NCBI RefSeq assembly: GCF_008000995.1
Contig: NZ_CP042828.1
Span: 124,001 to 188,000 of the forward strand
Reading direction: 5' to 3'
Length of the DNA: 64,000 bases
From: Ruania zhangjianzhongii
GTDB lineage: Bacteria > Actinomycetota > Actinomycetes > Actinomycetales > Beutenbergiaceae
Part shown: one piece after another, positions 3,672 through 19,270 of the stretch
Layout of the letters: every line of letters starts with the position of its first letter
Position numbering within the stretch: the first letter of the stretch is position 1
The notes under the pieces: generated by a model
Told to the model about the DNA's origin: nothing
Databases searched by the model: none
Seen by the model: only the letters and a program-made list of their open reading frames with translations
Translations under genes and position numbers: made by a program

Positions 3672-4238
3672 ATGCGCGTGGCACGTGGAGGGCAGGTCGA
3701 CCAGAGGATCCACGAGGCCGCGATGGCGTTGCTGCGTGCCTACGGTCCGGCGGCGGTGACCATCGAAGCGGTGGCCGCAGAGTCCGGGGTAGCCCGCACC
3801 ACCATCTACCGCCGGCACCGGGACCGCGGTGAGGTGCTGGAGTCGGCGTTGAAGGAGATCGCCGCGACGAACGTTCTGGTGCCCACCGCCGACGTCTGGG
3901 CGGATATGCGCACCGCGATCGAGATCACCATCGCCACCTTCCAGCAGAACAGGGGAGTCGGGGTGTTCATGGGGCTGGTGCAGAGCGGTGATCCGGAGCT
4001 GGTGGAACTGATCCGGGAGAAGCTGCTCCGGCCGCGGATGGAGCTGGGGGTGCGGCGACTGCGTGCCGGTATCGCCACCGGGCAGGTGCGCGCCGACGCC
4101 GAGGTGGAGACGGTTGCCGATCTGGTGCTCGGGGCGGTCGCCGCGCGGTTCGCGCACGCCGGCACGTTCCCACCGGAGTGGATCGACTCGGTGGTCGCGC
4201 TGATGCGCCGAGCGCTCGAGCCCGACGGCGGACGGTAG
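3672..4238 (+). CDS. TetR/AcrR family transcriptional regulator
   Basis: A 188-residue regulator with a TetR-type helix-turn-helix at about residues 12-55 (AAVTIEAVAAESGVARTTIY) and a divergent C-terminal ligand-binding domain. The start follows GAAGGGAAG. It lies upstream of the ether-lipid-like cluster in the same direction, and a perfect TetR-style palindrome (4433-4453) sits between it and the first ferritin-like gene. By position it is the best candidate regulator of that cluster. Its spacing from ptsH allows co-transcription with HPr instead. The ligand is unknown; acyl-CoA or fatty acid sensing would fit the context but is inference. Confidence 0.85.
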   Translation: MRVARGGQVDQRIHEAAMALLRAYGPAAVTIEAVAAESGVARTTIYRRHRDRGEVLESALKEIAATNVLVPTADVWADMRTAIEITIATFQQNRGVGVFMGLVQSGDPELVELIREKLLRPRMELGVRRLRAGIATGQVRADAEVETVADLVLGAVAARFAHAGTFPPEWIDSVVALMRRALEPDGGR

Positions 4239-4432: not shown

Positions 4433-4453
4433 ACGCTACAGTCCATGTAGCGT
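4433..4453. promoter_or_regulatory. Perfect palindrome, candidate TetR operator
   Basis: ACGCTACA-N5-TGTAGCGT is an exact 8-bp inverted repeat 58 bp before the ATG of the ferritin-like gene at 4512. TAGCGT inside the right arm could also be a -10 element. Size and symmetry fit a TetR dimer site. The preceding 190 bp (4239-4432) holds only a short direct repeat of GGTTGGCTCGTCGG. Confidence 0.6.
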
Positions 4454-4511
4454 ATCGGTACCGAACCCCGGCTGAGACCCATTTCGATGACCACAGCAAA
4501 GGACGGCGCGC

Positions 4512-5309
4512 ATGGCTTTCGACATTGAGCGCTTCGCCCGTGACTCTGTCCGCGTGGGCTGGGACGACCTTGACCTGGAGGTCTTCCGCACCGACCCGTT
4601 GCCGCCGGAGTCACTGCGCACCCTGCGTTACATGTGCGATGTGGAGTACCACACGGTCTGCTACCTGCGGGACATGCTGGTCACGCGTTCCCGCCGGGAG
4701 ACCGAGGTGAACGCGTTCATGACGATGTGGAACCGGGAGGAGTTCTGGCACGGCGAGGCGCTTGCGCACGTGCTCTCCCTGCACGACATCACCGTCTCCT
4801 ATGACGAGCTCAAGGCGAAACGGGTCAAGCTCGGCTGGAAGGATCGCCTCGCACCGTTGAAGCAGTCGATCATGTCCAACCTGGTGGGCAAGGACTTCGT
4901 GGCGGTGCACATGATCTGGGGCGCGGTGAACGAGTGGACTGCCGCTGCGGCGTACAAGCGACTCGCGGTGCTCGAGGGGCACCCCGGCCTGGCAGAGCTG
5001 CTCCGGCGGATTGCCGCCCAGGAGGCCCGGCACGTGGCCTTCTACGCCACCCAGGCGCGCAACCGGCTGACCAATAGCCCCAAGGCACAAAAGCTCGCCC
5101 GGCTCGCCCTGTCCACTGCCTGGCGGCCGGTCGGGTCGGGAATCGCCAGCGACGACGAGGTGACCCACGTGATGGGCCATCTGTTCGGCGGCGCGGCGGG
5201 GCGCAAGGCGATCAATGCCGTCGACCGGCACATCGCCAAGCTGCCCGGGATGGAAGGGCTCGCGGTGGTGGCGGATGCCTTCGACGCCCGCGGCATTGCC
5301 GCAGCATGA
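4512..5309 (+). CDS. Ferritin-like di-iron protein, complete metal site
   Basis: A 265-residue, all-helical soluble protein with a full ferritin-like di-iron ligand set by pattern: Glu45 (DVEYH), E77FWH80 (ExxH), Glu141 (VNEWT) and E171ARH174 (ExxH). Such carboxylate-bridged sites activate oxygen in acyl-ACP desaturases, aldehyde-deformylating oxygenases and related enzymes. I do not recognise the exact subfamily. No membrane segment or signal peptide is seen. It opens the cluster that includes a fatty acyl reductase and an alkyl-DHAP synthase, which suggests an oxidative step on an acyl, alkyl or aldehyde chain. A plasmanyl desaturase-like or fatty-acid desaturase role is inference only. A paralogue with a broken metal site follows. 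Confidence 0.75.
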   Translation: MAFDIERFARDSVRVGWDDLDLEVFRTDPLPPESLRTLRYMCDVEYHTVCYLRDMLVTRSRRETEVNAFMTMWNREEFWHGEALAHVLSLHDITVSYDELKAKRVKLGWKDRLAPLKQSIMSNLVGKDFVAVHMIWGAVNEWTAAAAYKRLAVLEGHPGLAELLRRIAAQEARHVAFYATQARNRLTNSPKAQKLARLALSTAWRPVGSGIASDDEVTHVMGHLFGGAAGRKAINAVDRHIAKLPGMEGLAVVADAFDARGIAAA

Positions 5310-5424
5310 GCGTGCCTCACCAGCTGCTGTGCGCATCGGAACACCGTTGGCGCCTTCGAACCACCGTGCAACCTGGTTCTCATCCGCGAAGGGTGTTCCA
5401 ACGCGGTGACGGTGGGGCCGGCCG

Positions 5425-6198
5425 GTGACCTTCGACGTGAAGGCGTACACCCGCGCGCCGATCGACCTGCGGCCGACGAACCTCGACCTGACCGCGTTGG
5501 CCGGCTTGGACCCGTCTACCCTCGCCACACTGGGCTACCTCTGGCAGGTCGAGCACGCCGTGCTCGACCTGATGCGGGATGTCCTGGTCACCCCCACGCA
5601 CGCCGAGTCGGAGGTCACCGCCTTCCTGGTGACCTGGGGCTACGAGCAGTACTGGCTCGCCGAGACCCTCCGCGAGGTGCTCGCCACCAATGGTGAGCGA
5701 ACAGACCACAGCCGGGACGCCGTCGTCGGCATGATGCTGCGTGGCTGGGACGACCGGGCTCGCCCGATGCTGCACTCCTTCCGCACCAATCTGCTCGGCG
5801 AGCAGGTGGTGGCCGGGCATTTGGCCACCGGCTGGTTGGACACTGCTGCGCTGGCGCTGTGCTACCGGCGGCTGGCCGCTGTGGTGCCGGCCTGCAGCAG
5901 GCTGACCGAGGCCGTGCTGCCGATGAAGGAACGGCACCTGGCCTTTCACGCCGCCCAGCTCCAGCAGCGGATCGCCGACCCCGCAGCTGCCCGGCACGCC
6001 CGGCGCGCCGCCCGCGCGTGGCGTTGGCCGGGAACCCGGTACGGCGGGTACGCCGCGGTGCACCCGGTGGTCGAGTTCCTGTTCGCGGACCGGGCAGCAC
6101 GCGCCCCGGTGCGCGCCGTCGACGAGGACGTGCAGGCCCTGCTGGACGTGGCACCCCTCACCCCGGTGCGCTCAGCACTGGGCCGTTTCGTCCGCTGA
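5425..6198 (+). CDS. Ferritin-like paralogue with degenerate di-iron site
   Basis: A 257-residue homologue of the preceding gene: both start M(A/T)FD and share VEHAVLDLMRDVLV-like and AFH/AFY helices. Aligned against the upstream protein, four of six ligands are lost: E77 to Gln75, H80 to Leu78, E141 to Thr140 and E171 to Lys168. The first helix Glu and the last His remain. It probably cannot hold two irons and may be a partner or regulatory subunit of the intact paralogue, or a duplicate taking a new role. It uses a GTG start at 5425 with a weak site. The 115-bp spacer before it carries GGAACACC/GGTGTTCC arms 45 bp apart. Confidence 0.75.
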   Translation: MTFDVKAYTRAPIDLRPTNLDLTALAGLDPSTLATLGYLWQVEHAVLDLMRDVLVTPTHAESEVTAFLVTWGYEQYWLAETLREVLATNGERTDHSRDAVVGMMLRGWDDRARPMLHSFRTNLLGEQVVAGHLATGWLDTAALALCYRRLAAVVPACSRLTEAVLPMKERHLAFHAAQLQQRIADPAAARHARRAARAWRWPGTRYGGYAAVHPVVEFLFADRAARAPVRAVDEDVQALLDVAPLTPVRSALGRFVR

Positions 6199-6375
6199 GC
6201 TGGGACGACGTCACACGCAGCAGCCGCCCCGGTGATCGCGGCGCTTGCCGGGCAGCGAAATAGCGCAGGTGCGGACCCTGCTGGACGTGGCTCCGCTCAC
6301 ATCTGTGCGCTCAGCACTGGGCCGACTCGCCTGCTGAGGCCACGGCAGTGTCCGCTTCCGCGTACAGTAACCGGA

Positions 6376-8646
6376 GTGTCGGACCCATTGAAGAACGCCC
6401 ACGTCCTGGTGACGGGTGCCACCGGATTTGTCGGACAGGCTGTCGTCGAGAAGCTCCTGTCCGCCTATCCGTCGACCCGGATCACCGTGCTGGTACGCCC
6501 ACGCGGCGCCCTCAGCGCGCAGGCGCGAGTGGACAAGCTCCTCCGTAAGCCGGTGTTCGATCCGTGGCGAGAACAGGTCGGTACTGAGGCCGCACAGCGG
6601 CAGACCGCCGAGCGGCTCACCGTGCTGGCCGGGGACCTGGGCGACGTCCCCGCACTGCCCGACGACCTGGACGTGGTGATCCACTCCGCCTCCACCGTCT
6701 CCTTCGACCTGCCCATCGATGAGGCCTTCGCCTCGAACGTCGGTGGTCCGGTGAACCTGTACCAGGCGATCACCGCCTCCGGGTCCGACCCGCACGTGGT
6801 CCACGTGTCTACCTGCTATGTGGCCGGCCTGCGCAAGGGCCTGTCCGAAGAACGGAGCCTGGAGCACCAGGTGGACCGCGAGGCGGAGATGACCCGGGCA
6901 CTCGCCGCCCGGGCGGACACCGAGACCGCCTCCCGCCGGCCGCAGCTGCTCGGCAAGCTGGTGGCCAAGGCCCGTTCCCAGCACCGCCGCGCCGGGGCGC
7001 AGGCGGTGGCCAAGGCTGCCGAGGAAGCGCGGAAGGCATGGGTCACCGACCAGCTCGTCGACGCGGGCCGCACCCGCGCCACCTCGCTGGGCTGGCCGGA
7101 CGTGTACACGTTCACCAAGGCGCTCGGCGAACGGGTGGCCGAGGACCTGTGGGCCGGCACCGGGCACCGGCTGTCGATCGTCCGCCCGACCATCATCGAG
7201 AGCTCGCTGCAGCACCCGTTCCCCGGCTGGATCGACGGCTTCAAGGTGGCCGACCCGCTGATCGCCGCCTATGGGCGCGGCGCCCTGCCGGAGTTCCCGG
7301 TGCTCGCCGACGCCATCCTGGACGTGATCCCGGTGGACCACGTGGTGAACGCGACGCTCGCCGCCGCCGCCTCGCCGCCCCCGGCCGCCGAGGCGCAGTA
7401 CTTCCAGGTAGCCTCCGGTAGCCGCAACCCGCTGCGGTTCGGCACCATCGTGCGGCTGCTCCGCGGCTACTTCAGCAAGCATCCGCTCACCGACGCCGAC
7501 GGTTCGTTCGTGCAGGTACCGAACTGGACCTTCCCGAACGGCCCTGCCGTGCAGCGCTCGCTGCGCCGACGCGAGCTGGCGGTGGATGCGGCCGATTCCG
7601 TGGTGGGCCGTCTCCCCGCGAACAACACCACGCGGAAGTGGATCTCCACGATCTACAAGGCCAAGCGAGACCTGGGCACCCTGCGCAAGTTCACCGACCT
7701 CTACCAGGCCTACACCCAGACCGAGGTCGTCTTCGACGACGCCAACACCCGGGCGCTGCACGAGGCGGTCGCCGACGAGCGCAAGGCGGAGCACGGGTTC
7801 GACGTCACCGCGATCGACTGGACGTACTACCTGCAAGAGGTGCACGTGCCGAAGGTCCCCGGCCTGATGCGCGAGCGCCGTCCCTCCGTGAAGCCCTCCA
7901 CCAGTGCCGACAACCTGCCCCAGCGCGACGATGTGCTCGCCGTGTTCGACCTGCACGGCACTGTGGCGGCAGCGAGCCTGATCGAGCACTACGTCTGGGT
8001 AGAGCTGGCCGCCAAGGGCATGCTCCCGGCCGTCCGCGAGCTCGGTGGGATGGTTGCGACCTCCGGCACGTACCTGCAGGCGGAGCGCCGCGACCGAGGC
8101 GACTTCATCCGCTCGTTCATGCGCCGCTACGCCGGGGTGAACGAGGCCGAGCTGCGTGAGGTGATCGCCACCAAGGTGACGCCGTCACTGCGTGCCCGGG
8201 TACACGCCGAGGCCACCGAACGTATCGCCAAGCACCGCGCCGCCGGGCACCGTACCGTGCTGGTCACCGGTCAGATCGACGTATTCGTGGAGCCGCTGGC
8301 GGATATGTTCGACGTGATCCTGGCCGGCGAGATGGAGAAGGATTCCTCGGGGAGCTGGACCGGGCACCTGGCTACCTCTCCGCTGGTGGACGAGGCCCGT
8401 GCCGCCTGGCTGGTGCGGTATGCCCGGGAGGAGGGTGTCGATCTGGGCGCCTCCTACGCTTACGGGGACACCTACTCGGACCGGCCGTGGCTGGACGTCG
8501 TCGGCCACGCGAACGTCGTCAACCCGGATCCGAGCCTGTACCGGTATGCGCGGGAGAAGCGCTGGCCGGTGCACTCCTGGACCACGACGGCGGAGGGTCG
8601 CCTCTCCCCGGTGGTCCGCTCGATCACAGGCGCGGGGCGCCGATGA
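6376..8646 (+). CDS. Fatty acyl reductase - HAD phosphatase fusion
   Basis: A 756-residue two-domain enzyme. Residues 1 to about 430 form an extended short-chain dehydrogenase of the thioester/fatty-acyl reductase kind: nucleotide loop LVTGATGFVG (residues 11-20), VHVSTCYVAG, and catalytic Y244TFTK. Residues about 520-740 form a HAD-IB (PSP-like) domain: VFDLHGTVA (nucleophile Asp525), LVTGQIDVF, and GDTYSDRPW (about 697-705). Motif I is D-x-H rather than the usual D-x-D. The reductase half is expected to turn acyl-CoA into fatty alcohol using NAD(P)H. The GTG start at 6376 gives MSDPLKNAHV; the frame is open upstream without a good start. The stop overlaps the next start (ATGA), so expression is coupled. 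Confidence 0.85.
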   Translation: MSDPLKNAHVLVTGATGFVGQAVVEKLLSAYPSTRITVLVRPRGALSAQARVDKLLRKPVFDPWREQVGTEAAQRQTAERLTVLAGDLGDVPALPDDLDVVIHSASTVSFDLPIDEAFASNVGGPVNLYQAITASGSDPHVVHVSTCYVAGLRKGLSEERSLEHQVDREAEMTRALAARADTETASRRPQLLGKLVAKARSQHRRAGAQAVAKAAEEARKAWVTDQLVDAGRTRATSLGWPDVYTFTKALGERVAEDLWAGTGHRLSIVRPTIIESSLQHPFPGWIDGFKVADPLIAAYGRGALPEFPVLADAILDVIPVDHVVNATLAAAASPPPAAEAQYFQVASGSRNPLRFGTIVRLLRGYFSKHPLTDADGSFVQVPNWTFPNGPAVQRSLRRRELAVDAADSVVGRLPANNTTRKWISTIYKAKRDLGTLRKFTDLYQAYTQTEVVFDDANTRALHEAVADERKAEHGFDVTAIDWTYYLQEVHVPKVPGLMRERRPSVKPSTSADNLPQRDDVLAVFDLHGTVAAASLIEHYVWVELAAKGMLPAVRELGGMVATSGTYLQAERRDRGDFIRSFMRRYAGVNEAELREVIATKVTPSLRARVHAEATERIAKHRAAGHRTVLVTGQIDVFVEPLADMFDVILAGEMEKDSSGSWTGHLATSPLVDEARAAWLVRYAREEGVDLGASYAYGDTYSDRPWLDVVGHANVVNPDPSLYRYAREKRWPVHSWTTTAEGRLSPVVRSITGAGRR

Positions 8647-9446
8647 CGGGCCGTACCCGCAGGAGCATCGTGCCGATCATCGGCACGGCGATGGTCACCG
8701 GCGGTACCTCCGGTATCGGTCTGGCGTTCGCCCGAGCGCTGGCCTCCCGAGGCTGCGACCTGGTGCTGGTGGCGCGCAACCGGCAGCGGCTGGACGCTGT
8801 GGCCGAGGAGCTGCGCGCCGAACACGGCATCGCCGTGGAGACCATCGAGGCGGACCTGACCGACCACGCCGAGACCGGCCGGGTCGCCCAGCGGTTGGAG
8901 GACACCGCAGCACCGGTGGACATCCTGGTGAACAACGCCGGCAACGGCATCCATGCGCCGCTGACCGTCGAGGACATGAGCATCCATGAGGTGTCCATGG
9001 ACCTGATGGTCCGCGGCGTCCTCCTCCTCGGCGGGGCGGCCGGGCGGACGATGAGTGCACGTGGCCGTGGTCTGATCATCAACGTCGGCTCAGTGGCCGG
9101 GCTGGTGCCGATGGGCACCTACTCGGCGATCAAGGCGTGGGTGAACATGTACTCGGAGAGCCTGAGCCTGGAGCTGCGGCGGGACGGCGTGCAGGTGATG
9201 ACGCTGATCCCCGGTTGGGTGCGCACCGAGTTCCACGGCCGGGCCAGTATCCGGACCTCGGCGATCCCGGGCTTCCTGTGGCTCGAGCCGGACCGGTTGG
9301 TGGAAGACTGTCTGCGTGATGTGGAGGCCGGGAAGACCCGGTCGGTACCATCACGAAGGTTCAAGGTGATTGCCTGGTCAGCGCAGCGGGCACCTCGCGC
9401 GTTGGTGCGCAGGGCTACAGCCCTGATCAAGAAGGGACGAGCATGA
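8643..9446 (+). CDS. Short-chain dehydrogenase/reductase, candidate alkyl/acyl-DHAP reductase
   Basis: A 267-residue classical SDR: cofactor loop MVTGGTSGIG (residues 17-26), LVNNAGNG, catalytic serine in NVGSVAG, and Y160SAIK164. The C-terminus carries a basic tail (ATALIKKGRA) that may touch membrane. It overlaps both neighbours by four bases (ATGA). In ether-lipid synthesis a ketone at C2 of alkyl-DHAP must be reduced, and in animals an SDR does this; position makes this SDR the candidate. Alternatively it resembles mycobacterial SDRs acting on long-chain beta-keto lipids. Function beyond SDR is inference. Confidence 0.85.
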   Translation: MTGRTRRSIVPIIGTAMVTGGTSGIGLAFARALASRGCDLVLVARNRQRLDAVAEELRAEHGIAVETIEADLTDHAETGRVAQRLEDTAAPVDILVNNAGNGIHAPLTVEDMSIHEVSMDLMVRGVLLLGGAAGRTMSARGRGLIINVGSVAGLVPMGTYSAIKAWVNMYSESLSLELRRDGVQVMTLIPGWVRTEFHGRASIRTSAIPGFLWLEPDRLVEDCLRDVEAGKTRSVPSRRFKVIAWSAQRAPRALVRRATALIKKGRA

Positions 9447-10195
9447 GCGAGCGGCGCAGGACCGGCCGGTACCACTCCCGGGTACACCGATGGTTGCGAT
9501 ATGTGGCCCAGCGACTCATCCTTCGCCCGGTGATCGCCTCCAGCGTGCGGGTCACGGTCGAGGGTGAGCGGAACCTGGCCGGGCTGGACGGCCCGTTCAT
9601 CCTGGTGGCGAACCACTCCTCGCACCTGGACGCACCGCTGTGCCTGACCACGTTGCCGTACCGGGTGACCAAGAACATCGCCACTGCGGCGGGTGCCGAC
9701 TACTTCTACTCCTCGAAGTGGCGCAGCTTGCTCACCTCGTTGTTCTTCAACACCTACCCGGTGGAGCGAGGTAAGGCGCGCGGCAAGTCCGCCGGCCTCT
9801 CGGTGAGTCTGCTCCGCCAGGGTGTCCCGCTGCTGATCTTCCCCGAGGGCACTCGTTCGCGCACCGGCGAGATGGCCGACTTCACCCCCGGAGCGGCCGC
9901 ACTCGCCCGTGCACTGCGCCTGCCGTTGGTGCCGGTGGCGCTGGTTGGCGCGCACGATGCGATGCCGGTCGGGATGTTCTGGCCGAAGTCCGGCCGGATG
10001 CCGGTGAAGGTACTGATCGGCAAGCCACTGCGGGTGCGTGCGGGGGAGAAGCTGCCCGAGTTCAATGCACGAGCGCAGGCGCGGGTGCGGGCGATGCACA
10101 CGATGCAGACGTCCTACGTACTCGTTCCCGAGGACAACGCGACACCGAAGCCGGGCAGCAACGACCTGCCCGAGGCACAGGAAGGGATCTCATGA
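9443..10195 (+). CDS. PlsC-type 1-acyl-glycerol-3-phosphate acyltransferase family protein
   Basis: A 250-residue acyltransferase with the catalytic HX4D motif in ANHSSHLDAP (His58, Asp63) and the glycerol-phosphate-binding FPEGTRS (133-139). The membrane-near segment is short. The reaction is transfer of an acyl chain from acyl-CoA or acyl-ACP to a hydroxyl of a glycerol phosphate or lyso-lipid. In this operon it may acylate DHAP at C1 (the substrate for ether exchange) or alkyl-glycerol-3-phosphate at C2. Start and stop overlap both neighbours by four bases, so the four-gene operon is translationally coupled. Confidence 0.88.
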   Translation: MSERRRTGRYHSRVHRWLRYVAQRLILRPVIASSVRVTVEGERNLAGLDGPFILVANHSSHLDAPLCLTTLPYRVTKNIATAAGADYFYSSKWRSLLTSLFFNTYPVERGKARGKSAGLSVSLLRQGVPLLIFPEGTRSRTGEMADFTPGAAALARALRLPLVPVALVGAHDAMPVGMFWPKSGRMPVKVLIGKPLRVRAGEKLPEFNARAQARVRAMHTMQTSYVLVPEDNATPKPGSNDLPEAQEGIS

Positions 10196-11874
10196 CCGAC
10201 GTCGTCCACCAGAAGTGGTGGGGCTGGGGTGTGGAAGGCATCGCCTTCCAGCACGAGAACAAGCCCGGGTTCGCTCCGTTTGTACGCGAGGCGATCGGGC
10301 TGGACCTGCACTCTCCGGCCGGCCGACCGCCGTCGTTCGAGGACCTGGACGTTCCCGCCTCGCAGCTGGACGACTCGCTCGGTGCGCGCCTGCGGGAGAT
10401 CGTCGGCGACCACCAGGTCAGCAGCGAGGACATGAACCGGGTGGTGCACACCTACGGCAAGGGCCTGCGGGACCTGGTGCGGGTGCGCGCCGGTGACCTG
10501 CCCCGGGTGCCGGACGTGGTGGTCTACCCGGCCAACTCCGATGAGGTGCGCGCGATCGTGGATGCCGTGGTCGCTGCCGACGGCGTGCTCATCCCGTTCG
10601 GTGGCGGTTCGAACATCTCCGGCTCGCTCACCCCACAGGCGGGGGAGAAGCGGGTGGTGGTCTCGCTCGACATGGGCCGGATGAACCGGGTGCTGGAGAT
10701 TGACGCGGACGCCGGTCTCGCCCTCATCCAGGCCGGTGGCCTGGGTCCCGACCTGGAGGAGCAGCTGAACGGCCAGGGCTGGACGATGGGGCACCAGCCG
10801 GACTCGTTCAAGCACTCCACGCTCGGCGGCTGGATCGCTACCCGGTCCTCCGGGATGCAGTCGGACAAGTATGGCGATATTGCCGACATCACTCGCGGGA
10901 TGACTGTGGTGCTGCCGGGCAAGGTGGTGCAACTGCGGCCGTTGCCGAGCACCTCCACCGGTCCGAGCGTGCGGGAGATGATCATCGGCTCCGAGGGCCG
11001 GCTCGGCGTGATCACCCAGGCCTGGGTGCACGTGCACCGGCTGCCGGAGAACCGCGAGGTGATCGCCTACCTGTTCCCGAACTGGGCAGCCGGTCTGGCC
11101 GCGATGCGGGAGATCTCCACCTCCGACGCCACACCGAGTATCACCCGGGTCTCCGATGCACCCGAGACGGGCTTCTCCCTGGCGACCCGCAAGGAGTCGA
11201 ACAGCCTGTCGTCCAAGGTGGGCGAAGGGCTGTTCGAGGTGCTTCGCCGCCGTGGCTGGGACCTGGAGAAGGTCTGCATCTCCTACATCGGCTACGAGGG
11301 CGGCTCAGCCAAGGTACGTGCGGACAAGTCCGTGGTGGGCAAGATCGTCAGCAAGAACGGTGGCATCAAGCTCGGCAAGGGTCCGGGAGCGATGTATGAC
11401 CAGAAGAAGTTCGACACGCCGTACCTGCGGGACTTTCTGTTGGACCGGGGGGCCCTGGGCGACGTCTCCGAGACCGCCGCGCCGTGGTCCCGCCTCGGTG
11501 AGGTGTACACCGCCACGGTGCGCGCCGCCCGTACCGCGTTCGATGAGCTCGGTGTGCACGGCTTCGTGATGTGCCATCTCTCGCACTCCTACCACTCCGG
11601 TGCGTGCCTGTACTTCACCTTCGCGTTCCCGCCCAAACCCGATGCGGACCCGCTGGCGCAGTACGACGTGGTGAAGTCCGCGATCCAGCAGTCCTTCGTG
11701 GACCATGGCGGTACGCTCTCGCACCACCACGGGGTGGGTACCGATCACGCGCCGTGGATGGAGCAAGACATCTCCGAGCCGGGGGTGGACCTGATGGTGG
11801 GGCTGCTGTCCTCCGCGGATCCGGGCCGGAACCTGAACCCGGGCACGCTGATCCCCGAGCACCGGGAGTGGTGA
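10192..11874 (+). CDS. FAD-linked alkyl-DHAP (alkylglycerone-phosphate) synthase homologue
   Basis: A 560-residue flavoprotein that matches remembered eukaryotic alkyl-DHAP synthase motifs over its whole length: WWGWG at the N-terminus, FAD-binding IPFGGGSNIS, MGHQPDSF, GGWIATRSSGM, YGDIADI, STGPSVREMIIGSEG, ETAAPW, SYHSGACLYF (Tyr467) and the FAD/active-site histidines TLSHHHGVG (about 508-516). That enzyme swaps the acyl group of acyl-DHAP for a fatty alcohol, making the ether bond. Other VAO-family oxidases lack the Tyr plus HHH pair. Length is close to bacterial members. It is the last gene of the coupled operon; a repeat and a convergent TetR gene follow. Confidence 0.88.
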   Translation: MTDVVHQKWWGWGVEGIAFQHENKPGFAPFVREAIGLDLHSPAGRPPSFEDLDVPASQLDDSLGARLREIVGDHQVSSEDMNRVVHTYGKGLRDLVRVRAGDLPRVPDVVVYPANSDEVRAIVDAVVAADGVLIPFGGGSNISGSLTPQAGEKRVVVSLDMGRMNRVLEIDADAGLALIQAGGLGPDLEEQLNGQGWTMGHQPDSFKHSTLGGWIATRSSGMQSDKYGDIADITRGMTVVLPGKVVQLRPLPSTSTGPSVREMIIGSEGRLGVITQAWVHVHRLPENREVIAYLFPNWAAGLAAMREISTSDATPSITRVSDAPETGFSLATRKESNSLSSKVGEGLFEVLRRRGWDLEKVCISYIGYEGGSAKVRADKSVVGKIVSKNGGIKLGKGPGAMYDQKKFDTPYLRDFLLDRGALGDVSETAAPWSRLGEVYTATVRAARTAFDELGVHGFVMCHLSHSYHSGACLYFTFAFPPKPDADPLAQYDVVKSAIQQSFVDHGGTLSHHHGVGTDHAPWMEQDISEPGVDLMVGLLSSADPGRNLNPGTLIPEHREW

Positions 11875-11912: not shown

Positions 11913-11986
11913 TGAATCCATTCACTCGTTACCTGCTGCACCCAGGCGTGCTCTGCGGTATCGCCTGGGCGCAGCAAGTATCGAAC
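11913..11986 (-). repeat. Dispersed 70-75 bp intergenic repeat, copy C
   Basis: Minus-strand copy, 74 bp, between the convergent alkyl-DHAP synthase and TetR genes. It keeps TTCGATACTT, GGCGATACCGC, GAGCACG and the GTGAATGGATTCA end but is more diverged than copies A and B. A downstream GC-rich stretch (CCGCCGGCC repeated) fills the rest of the gap. Confidence 0.75.
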
Positions 11987-12075: not shown

Positions 12076-12660
12076 TCAGGCGTCGTCGAGCTGGGCGACG
12101 GCCCGCGATGCCGCCTGGACGGGCTCGTCCAGCCAGTGGGGGATGTCCTCGCCGATGAGGCTACGCACCATCCCCAGCGGGGCGTCCCGAACGGCGAGCG
12201 AGACGAGCTCGATCCCGCGCTGCCTGACCCGGCCGTAGCGCTGCTCGGTGAGGTGGGTGATCAGTCGGCCCACCGGCGCGTTCAGCTCGAGGAGCACGTC
12301 CGCCAGCCCGGCCGGCGGCTCGGCGAGTAGGTCCCGGTAGCGAAACACCGTCAGCATCCGGGCATCCTGAGGGTTCGCGCGGCAGAAGCGTGGGATGAAC
12401 AGGCCGGTCTCCACGATCGCCTCCAGCGGGTCCACGAGCTCGTAGATCGCGTCGAACTGCGCGTGATAGCGGTGCACTGCGCGGATCCACGCTGAGGCGA
12501 ACAGGGCGTCCCGCGAGGCGAACCGGTGATAGATCGAGCCCGATGGTGCTCCCAGCCGTGCGGTGACGTGCCCGACGGTGGCCGTGCGCCAGTGCTCATG
12601 AACGGCCGAGGTGGCCGCGTCGAGAATCTGATCGATCGTGAATCTGGAGGGCTTGACCAT
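12076..12660 (-). CDS. TetR/AcrR family transcriptional regulator
   Basis: A 194-residue regulator with a TetR helix-turn-helix at about residues 8-50 (TVGHVTARLGAPSGSIYHRF) and a C-terminal helical domain. It is divergent from the membrane protein at 12724, with a palindrome between them. The ATG at 12660 gives a family-typical N-terminus (MVKPSRFTIDQIL). A further in-frame ATG at 12693 adds 11 residues and cannot be excluded. TACACT lies just upstream of 12660, compatible with a leaderless message. Confidence 0.85.
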   Translation of the reverse strand: MVKPSRFTIDQILDAATSAVHEHWRTATVGHVTARLGAPSGSIYHRFASRDALFASAWIRAVHRYHAQFDAIYELVDPLEAIVETGLFIPRFCRANPQDARMLTVFRYRDLLAEPPAGLADVLLELNAPVGRLITHLTEQRYGRVRQRGIELVSLAVRDAPLGMVRSLIGEDIPHWLDEPVQAASRAVAQLDDA

Positions 12661-12694
12661 CGGACCAGTGTAGGCAATCCTAGAGACCGACATC

Positions 12695-15700: not shown

Positions 15701-16086
15701 GTGACCGGCATCGTGTACTTCTCCTCCGTCTCGGAGAACACACGGCGTTTCGTGGAGCGGGTGGACCTCGCGTCCGAACGCATCCCGCTCCGACCGGCGG
15801 ACGGGCACCTGCGAGTGGACCACCCGTACGTGCTCATCACCCCCACCTACGGGGGCGGGAACGGCCAGGGGGCTGTACCCAAGCAAGTGATCAAGTTCCT
15901 CAACGACACTCACAACCGATCGCTGATCCGCGGTGTGGTGGCCGCGGGGAACACCAACTTCGGTGCGGCTTACTGCCTGGCCGGGCGAATCGTCGCCCGC
16001 AAGTGCAAGGTGCCGCACCTGTACGACTTCGAACTACTAGGAACCGCTGAGGACGTCATGCACGTCCGCGAAGGAATGGGGCACAC

Positions 16087-16102
<16 letters not shown>
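15701..16102 (+). CDS. nrdI: Flavodoxin-like protein NrdI
   Basis: A 133-residue NrdI. The FMN-binding start reads [14 protein letters not shown], followed by [10 protein letters not shown] and a third loop, [13 protein letters not shown]. NrdI supplies the oxidant needed to build the dimanganese-tyrosyl radical cofactor of NrdF. GTG start at 15701 with GAAGG upstream. It overlaps nrdE by 16 bp. The 134-bp spacer after nrdH shows nothing notable. Confidence 0.95.

Positions 16103-19270
<3,168 letters not shown>

Follow-up and report, generated by a model that had tools for sequence, protein, structure and literature searches.

The DNA analyzed here is a stretch of 64,000 nucleotides (hereafter the window) from Ruania zhangjianzhongii, family Ruaniaceae of the Micrococcales (assembly GCF_008000995.1, 5.1 Mb in two contigs; contig NZ_CP042828.1, positions 124,001 to 188,000), and the subject is a gene cluster in it that is probably devoted to the synthesis of ether lipids. 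In window coordinates, six genes follow one another on the + strand: ferA (4512–5309) and ferB (5425–6198), which encode ferritin-like proteins, an alcohol-forming fatty acyl reductase (FAR) fused to a HAD-IB-like domain (FAR-HAD, 6379–8646), an SDR (8643–9446), a PlsC-type acyltransferase (9443–10195) and a homologue of alkyl-dihydroxyacetone phosphate (alkyl-DHAP) synthase (AGPS, 10192–11874). All six had been proposed in an original prediction made from the sequence letters, and all were recovered in the translations of open reading frames and in domain searches; the ATGA overlaps said to join the last four were likewise found, at 8643–8646, 9443–9446 and 10192–10195, one of them at either end of the PlsC gene. 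The FAR-HAD reading frame is open from 6232, and a start near 6379 is likely in view of the length of most homologues, about 755 amino acids, while the SDR gene likely begins at the ATG at 8643, the frame listed from 8487 being over-extended. The predicted extent was right for the six genes but left out a gene for a TetR-family regulator (3672–4238, + strand; TetR_N and TetR_C_11 domains) that is apparently part of the unit. The start given for the cluster, 4433, is in fact the first base of a 21 bp palindrome, ACGCTACA-N5-TGTAGCGT (4433–4453), which is proposed to be the TetR operator at the cluster promoter.

When compared to solved structures, the AGPS protein matched AGPS of Dictyostelium with 382 bits and that of guinea pig with 308 bits (E 4.9e-113 and 1.3e-90), the best other flavoprotein reaching 75 bits (E 5.7e-20). 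It is 39.7% identical to the Dictyostelium and 33% to the guinea pig protein, and 26.8% to the GlcD-like protein of its own genome. The motifs IPFGGGSN, GGWIATRSSGM, SYHSGACLYF and SHHHGVG named in the prediction are all found in the translation. The HHH motif and the Tyr within SYHSGAC, which we take to be active-site residues of AGPS, are kept, whereas the genome's three other FAD-oxidase_C proteins have neither. A tree built from 37 proteins places the window AGPS in a clade with 14 members (support 100/99). Actinobacterial AGPS-like proteins of a second type (31–40% identity) form a clade of their own with 20 rows (support 100/99), and the GlcD-like protein is set apart as an outgroup by a very long branch; the placement of the eukaryotic rows is unsure because of long branches. 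The grouping with D-lactate/glycolate-type oxidases that would have spoken against an alkyl-DHAP synthase homologue was thus looked for by phylogeny, and the protein grouped with AGPS, far from the GlcD-like protein, so that structure matches, motifs and tree all bear out the family assignment. With the family identity well supported, the flavoprotein is predicted to act as an alkyl-DHAP synthase, exchanging an acyl for an alkyl chain. AGPS homologues in metagenome-assembled genomes (MAGs) of Actinobacteria have already been published, as passages of PMC11868695 state. Here an AGPS profile matched 65 of 396 genomes of the phylum at E 1e-100, only three of them, the window's own included, with scores like those of the strong AGPS type (at least 50% identity in the order-level sample below), at more than 860 bits.

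The reductase assignment was also upheld, both by domains and by the nearest solved structure. FAR-HAD contains a NAD_binding_4 domain (5e-48; 163.9 bits, cut-off 20.1) and a HAD domain (5e-31), and residues 7–493 match the solved fatty acyl-coenzyme A reductase 7eoz (E 1.2e-51). The Sterile-type C-terminal domain stays below its cut-off (E 3.8e-8; 33.8 vs. 35.4 bits), and the HAD part exceeds the cut-off of TIGR01490 (111.7 vs. 98.3 bits). The DxD motif, which we take to be catalytic in HAD-IB proteins, does not occur in the window FAR-HAD, which has DLHGT instead. Among 94 sequences the motif reads DLEGT in 45, DLHGT in 20, DFEGT in 12, DLDGT in 9, DMEGT in 2 and DMHGT in 1, and was not found in 5; D-x-H-G-T is the form of the window and of most relatives in Ruaniaceae, D-x-E-G-T that of most Microbacteriaceae. 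For the SDR (adh_short, 1.3e-41) and the acyltransferase (PF01553, 9e-23) the predicted roles hold at the family level, while their substrates within the pathway follow from the gene context: the SDR is proposed to be the reductase of 1-alkyl-DHAP, i.e., of the C2 ketone, and acylation of DHAP may fall to the cluster PlsC or to a housekeeping acyltransferase.

The association of AGPS with the other genes was followed in an order-level sample of 297 genomes, in which strong-type AGPS was present in 62. FAR-HAD, counted at E 1e-40 or better, was present in 62/62 of these compared to 2 of the 18 other genomes tested. FerA and strong AGPS occurred together in 37 genomes, AGPS alone in 25, FerA alone in 5 and neither in 230; the corresponding counts by genus were 11, 6, 2 and 76, and the Fisher values for this association ignore phylogeny although one analysis was made per genus. 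Forty of the 62 strong-type AGPS loci were fetched; relatives of FAR-HAD were found near AGPS in 30, of SDR in 36, of PlsC in 34 and of FerA in 15. A second, named collection was drawn from the best 80 of 207 FerA relatives. Of these 80 loci, some of which end at contig ends, 63 hold the full set of FerA, FAR-HAD, SDR, PlsC and AGPS (AGPS was counted 63 times by tblastn and 62 times among extracted reading frames), in both colinear and divergent layouts: loci of Ruania and Occultella follow the colinear arrangement of the window, and in most Microbacteriaceae and Phytoactinopolyspora loci a FerB-type gene, FAR-HAD and ferA are divergent from SDR, PlsC and AGPS. For the 17 loci without the full set 16 genomes could be searched, and in 11 of them strong AGPS was encoded away from the FerA locus. 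The genes are dispersed in Kineococcus, with FAR-HAD adjoining a PlsC relative and AGPS at a different site, as judged from gene calls made with a crude GC-frame script that also served for the neighborhoods of unlinked ferA genes.

The setting in the Micrococcales proposed in the original prediction is correct insofar as the gene set is present there, but it is not confined to that order, being found also in Phytoactinopolyspora (Jiangellales) and in a record titled Streptomyces. In the open-licence literature, no paper was recognized that connects ether lipids of Micrococcales with AGPS, FAR or a ferritin-like protein. A contig titled Acidobacteria bacterium MAG (L165) carries the whole actinobacterial gene set at 43–66% identity, possibly owing to mis-binning or transfer. 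The second AGPS-like clade (L075–L094) keeps the Tyr and HHH positions and lacks ether-lipid neighbors. In the 20 of its 25 loci that were fetched, FAR-HAD, PlsC and FerA were adjacent in none, and generic SDR matches (27–28%) were seen in two. AGPS-positive genomes without FAR-HAD, among those tested, had this second type only (G025, G094, G260, and G054).

The palindrome occurs once in the window with up to three mismatches (0.07 expected), and a counterpart lies 60–91 bp before ferA in 12/12 Ruaniaceae loci, the window counted. The TetR gene is found upstream of ferA in all 11 other Ruaniaceae ferA-cluster loci with 64–94% identity, and relatives with 34–35% identity are present in L055 and L056. 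Across the named collection a TetR relative (31–94%) accompanies 31 of 62 cluster loci, including the 6 Ruaniaceae among them. The palindrome core CGCTAC-N7-GTAGCG occurs 32 times in 31 of the 80 named loci: 7 times upstream of ferA, 20 times just before the FerB-type gene of the divergent layout and 5 times ahead of the TetR relative, at a distance of about 84 bp. When the arm was compared to all 120 permutations, the true one was found in 31 loci against a mean of 2.4, two other CG-rich permutations giving 24 and 21. It is probable that TetR governs a dedicated regulon, including its own gene, in part of the family, and the palindrome, as judged from its conservation, may be the operator to which it binds.

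The ferritin-like pair had been noticed in the original prediction but left unexplained, and the difference between a complete and a degenerate set of metal ligands had been missed. All six diiron ligands are kept in 81/81 FerA sequences, in the arrangement of two E and two ExxH that we take to be that of soluble acyl-ACP (acyl carrier protein) desaturases. FerB is 30% identical to FerA, and the positions H80 and E171 are lost in 71/71 FerB-type sequences, which makes FerB a degenerate FerA paralogue and a probable non-catalytic partner. The predicted structure of FerA has a desaturase fold that is closest to acyl-ACP desaturases. The match to the corresponding family PF03405 stays under the gathering cut-off (18.6 vs. 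22.7 bits); at E 0.1 or better it is matched by 38 of 69 FerA and FerB members taken together, the best at 1.5e-5. No match of FerA to the CarF/PEDS1 family PF10520 (Lipid_desat) was obtained up to E 10. It is most likely that FerA acts on the alkyl chain of these ether lipids or on a direct precursor, and it is a candidate vinyl-ether (delta-1') desaturase.

The lipids of cluster-bearing species provide support of a different kind. According to the passages in question of PMC5945732, Subtercola vilae DB165 has dimethyl acetals of iso-16:0 (17.0%), anteiso-15:0 (3.2%) and anteiso-17:0 (1.9%), and values taken there from earlier papers are 6.9, 9.7, and 2.6% for Subtercola lobariae and 11.9, 11.0, and 4.0% for Subtercola boreus DSM 13056. 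Both PMC5945732 and PMC7472656 credit Subtercola dimethyl acetals to Mannisto et al. (2000). The five-gene set is present in strain DB165 itself (L104), in S. lobariae (L105) and in other strains of S. boreus (L107, L108, and L112), and FerA and FerB were found in 12/12 Subtercola genomes searched. Passages of PMC5945732 report low dimethyl acetals for Agreia and none for Frondihabitans. For Kineococcus rubinsiae, 2.9% anteiso-C15:0 dimethyl acetal was identified by gas chromatography-mass spectrometry and called surprising at first sight, the MIDI system having assigned the peak as C14:0 2-OH (PMC7472656, in the relevant passage), and such lipids may therefore be under-reported.

The known enzymes for the vinyl-ether step were searched for in the same groups. 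The CarF/PEDS1 family was found in none of 67 genomes, 56 of them with strong AGPS and S. lobariae but not S. vilae among them; the 67 may include a few repeats (L101 lies in G682, which is apparently identical to G295), and as none of 14 control genomes gave a signal the absence is likely rather than proven. The family PF09989 (DUF2229), which we take to be that of PlsA, was found in 0/16 strong-AGPS genomes, including S. vilae, S. lobariae, and Kineococcus radiotolerans, and in 4 of 14 controls. With neither family found, the vinyl-ether step in Subtercola is without a known enzyme, and FerA with FerB becomes the candidate inside the cluster.

Taken together, these findings suggest that the cluster is an operon under TetR control through which ether lipids are made aerobically via the alkyl-DHAP route, and we infer the steps as follows. 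Branched acyl thioesters would be reduced to fatty alcohols by FAR, and DHAP would be acylated by the cluster PlsC or a housekeeping acyltransferase. In the next step AGPS would put the alcohol in place of the acyl chain; the C2 ketone would then be reduced by the SDR, and PlsC would add the sn-2 acyl chain. Finally, FerA with FerB might carry out an O2-dependent C1'-C2' desaturation to give the plasmalogen vinyl ether, which is the best single guess for their reaction. That the cluster is an ether-lipid operon, as first predicted, is supported by the grouping of AGPS, the presence of FAR-HAD in every strong-AGPS genome and the dimethyl acetals reported for cluster-bearing Subtercola, and is given a probability of about 0.88. 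It is likely that FerA is a working part of this operon, and rather likely that the ether lipids of FerA-bearing species include vinyl ethers. The more specific proposal, that FerA with FerB makes the vinyl bond as a soluble, ferritin-like, O2-dependent diiron desaturase encoded together with the whole pathway under a single TetR regulator, is tentative, and the odds are somewhat against it; it would stand as a third solution beside CarF/PEDS1 and the reductive anaerobic route, independent of both and related to neither.

Several observations weigh against this scheme. In most sequences the motif of the HAD-like domain has no second Asp; phosphatase activity is therefore doubtful and may have been lost or changed. 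The unit holds a single acyltransferase. The exact palindrome core is missing in 49 of the 80 named loci and a nearby TetR relative in 31 of 62. FerA also occurs apart from AGPS: five genomes of the named collection have FerA but no strong AGPS (two MAGs and, without an AGPS match at E 1e-30, two Agromyces and Haloactinopolyspora), and in the order-level sample FerA is found without strong AGPS and FAR-HAD in G021, G054, and G238, of which G054 has the second AGPS-like type. FerA with FAR-HAD but no strong AGPS is found in G004 and G040, the latter 73% complete. At the level of the phylum 23 of 396 genomes are FerA-positive, with strong AGPS only in the window's own; of the other 22, 20 have distant FerA-like proteins only and the rest are G021 and G054. 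The neighbors of unlinked ferA genes included no informative recurrent partner. Conversely, FerA and FerB are absent from 11/11 Kineococcus genomes, all with strong AGPS and FAR-HAD, K. rubinsiae not being identified among them; either, then, the small dimethyl-acetal signal of this genus arises in a different way, or FerA is not the enzyme in every group. No alternative desaturase was recognized by eye beside the Kineococcus AGPS or FAR-HAD genes on the crude gene calls. Free fatty aldehydes can also yield dimethyl acetals, and known soluble desaturases act on ACP-bound chains rather than on membrane lipids. G004 and G040 (FerA loci L188 and L189, FAR-HAD loci L203 and L204) are two genomes of one family and possibly arrive at a related product in a different way.

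Three alternatives concern FerA only and share the operon with the preferred reading; they overlap, and their likelihoods should not be expected to add up to one. It is possible, although on balance doubtful, that the cluster makes saturated alkyl-acyl lipids only, with FerA and FerB acting as a soluble acyl-ACP desaturase of the ordinary kind, or as a hydroxylase, and modifying the chain before it reaches FAR or PlsC. This would agree with the nearest predicted fold, with the genomes that have FerA without strong AGPS and with the lack of FerA in 25 of the 62 strong-AGPS genomes; it would, however, leave the dimethyl acetals of Subtercola without an enzyme, CarF and PlsA families not being found, and FerA scores under the Pfam cut-off for acyl-ACP desaturases. 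It is unlikely that FerA and FerB take the product of FAR, fatty aldehyde or alcohol, as their substrate in the manner of an aldehyde-deformylating oxygenase, giving hydrocarbons or removing aldehyde in parallel to ether-lipid synthesis; cyanobacterial enzymes of this kind are not among the 50 matches listed for the FerA fold, which excludes nothing. More unlikely still is a role as ferritin-like proteins of iron storage or oxidative stress, located near lipid genes by chance or protecting oxidation-prone lipids, for although 38 of 69 members have weak Rubrerythrin-family matches, the linkage survives rearrangement in 63 of 80 loci, the predicted fold is desaturase-like and the paralogues pair a catalytic-type with a degenerate protein. 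The idea that the flavoprotein is instead a 2-hydroxyacid oxidase of the glycolate/lactate type amid unrelated lipid-tailoring genes has GlcD as the best NCBIfam name in its favor, yet with 129.7 bits against a cut-off of 567.9, and it is rejected and largely refuted by the AGPS structure matches, the long GlcD-like outgroup in the tree and the retained HHH and active-site Tyr positions.

Downstream of AGPS lies an imperfect inverted repeat (11926–11984, + strand; 23-nt arms, 13-nt loop), a possible transcript end that is weak because the terminator scan found no T-run terminator there; scans for sigma-70 promoters and terminators were otherwise uninformative. Another TetR gene (12076–12693, − strand) was rejected as a cluster member, as it had no match at E 1e-3 or 1e-6 in the 60 fetched AGPS loci. 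Further downstream, nrdI, nrdE, and nrdF for ribonucleotide reductase follow in a row at 15701–19270, an ordinary arrangement.

The mammalian alkyl-DHAP pathway (FAR1, GNPAT, AGPS, acyl/alkyl-DHAP reductase, PEDS1) shares with the cluster FAR, AGPS, an SDR of the ketone-reducing type and an acyltransferase. It differs in that the genes are here gathered in one cluster, FAR carries a fused HAD-like domain, none of the genes is assigned as a separate GNPAT and no member of the PEDS1 family was found, a soluble-type diiron protein possibly taking the place of PEDS1. Compared to soluble acyl-ACP desaturases such as stearoyl-ACP desaturase and mycobacterial DesA2, FerA is only 12–19% identical, falls below the Pfam cut-off and has an ether-lipid gene context. 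Anaerobic plasmalogen synthesis relies on two reductase genes, presumably those named plsA and plsR. As described in passages of PMC9702350, this is a reductive route from diacyl lipids whose genes are reported in several other actinobacterial orders; if the present reading is right, vinyl-ether lipids are the shared class of end product, while PF09989 is absent from 16/16 genomes here. Myxococcus xanthus makes plasmalogens aerobically with the elbA-E and MXAN_1676-1674 operons and CarF, and passages of PMC9131029 describe there AGPS, FAR-like, acyltransferase, HAD-like, and NAD-dependent proteins as here, with FAR and acyltransferase domains fused in ElbD and MXAN_1675 and with CarF making the vinyl ether. 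The original prediction had drawn the same comparison, and rightly so: the multidomain ElbD type (FAR, ACS, ACP, and acyltransferase in one protein) does not occur in the window, where the genes are separate and coupled, FAR is fused to HAD, and FerA/FerB and TetR are present with no CarF found.

The cluster would bring together the components of an alkyl-DHAP pathway and a candidate enzyme for the vinyl-ether step that is otherwise missing. In the passages concerned of PMC5945732 and PMC7472656, the dimethyl acetals reported for aerobic actinobacteria have no genetic explanation, and the cluster offers a candidate for one. If FerA is the vinyl-ether enzyme, O2-dependent desaturation of plasmalogens would have had two or more separate origins, and work on a soluble desaturase could prove less difficult than work on the membrane-bound one.

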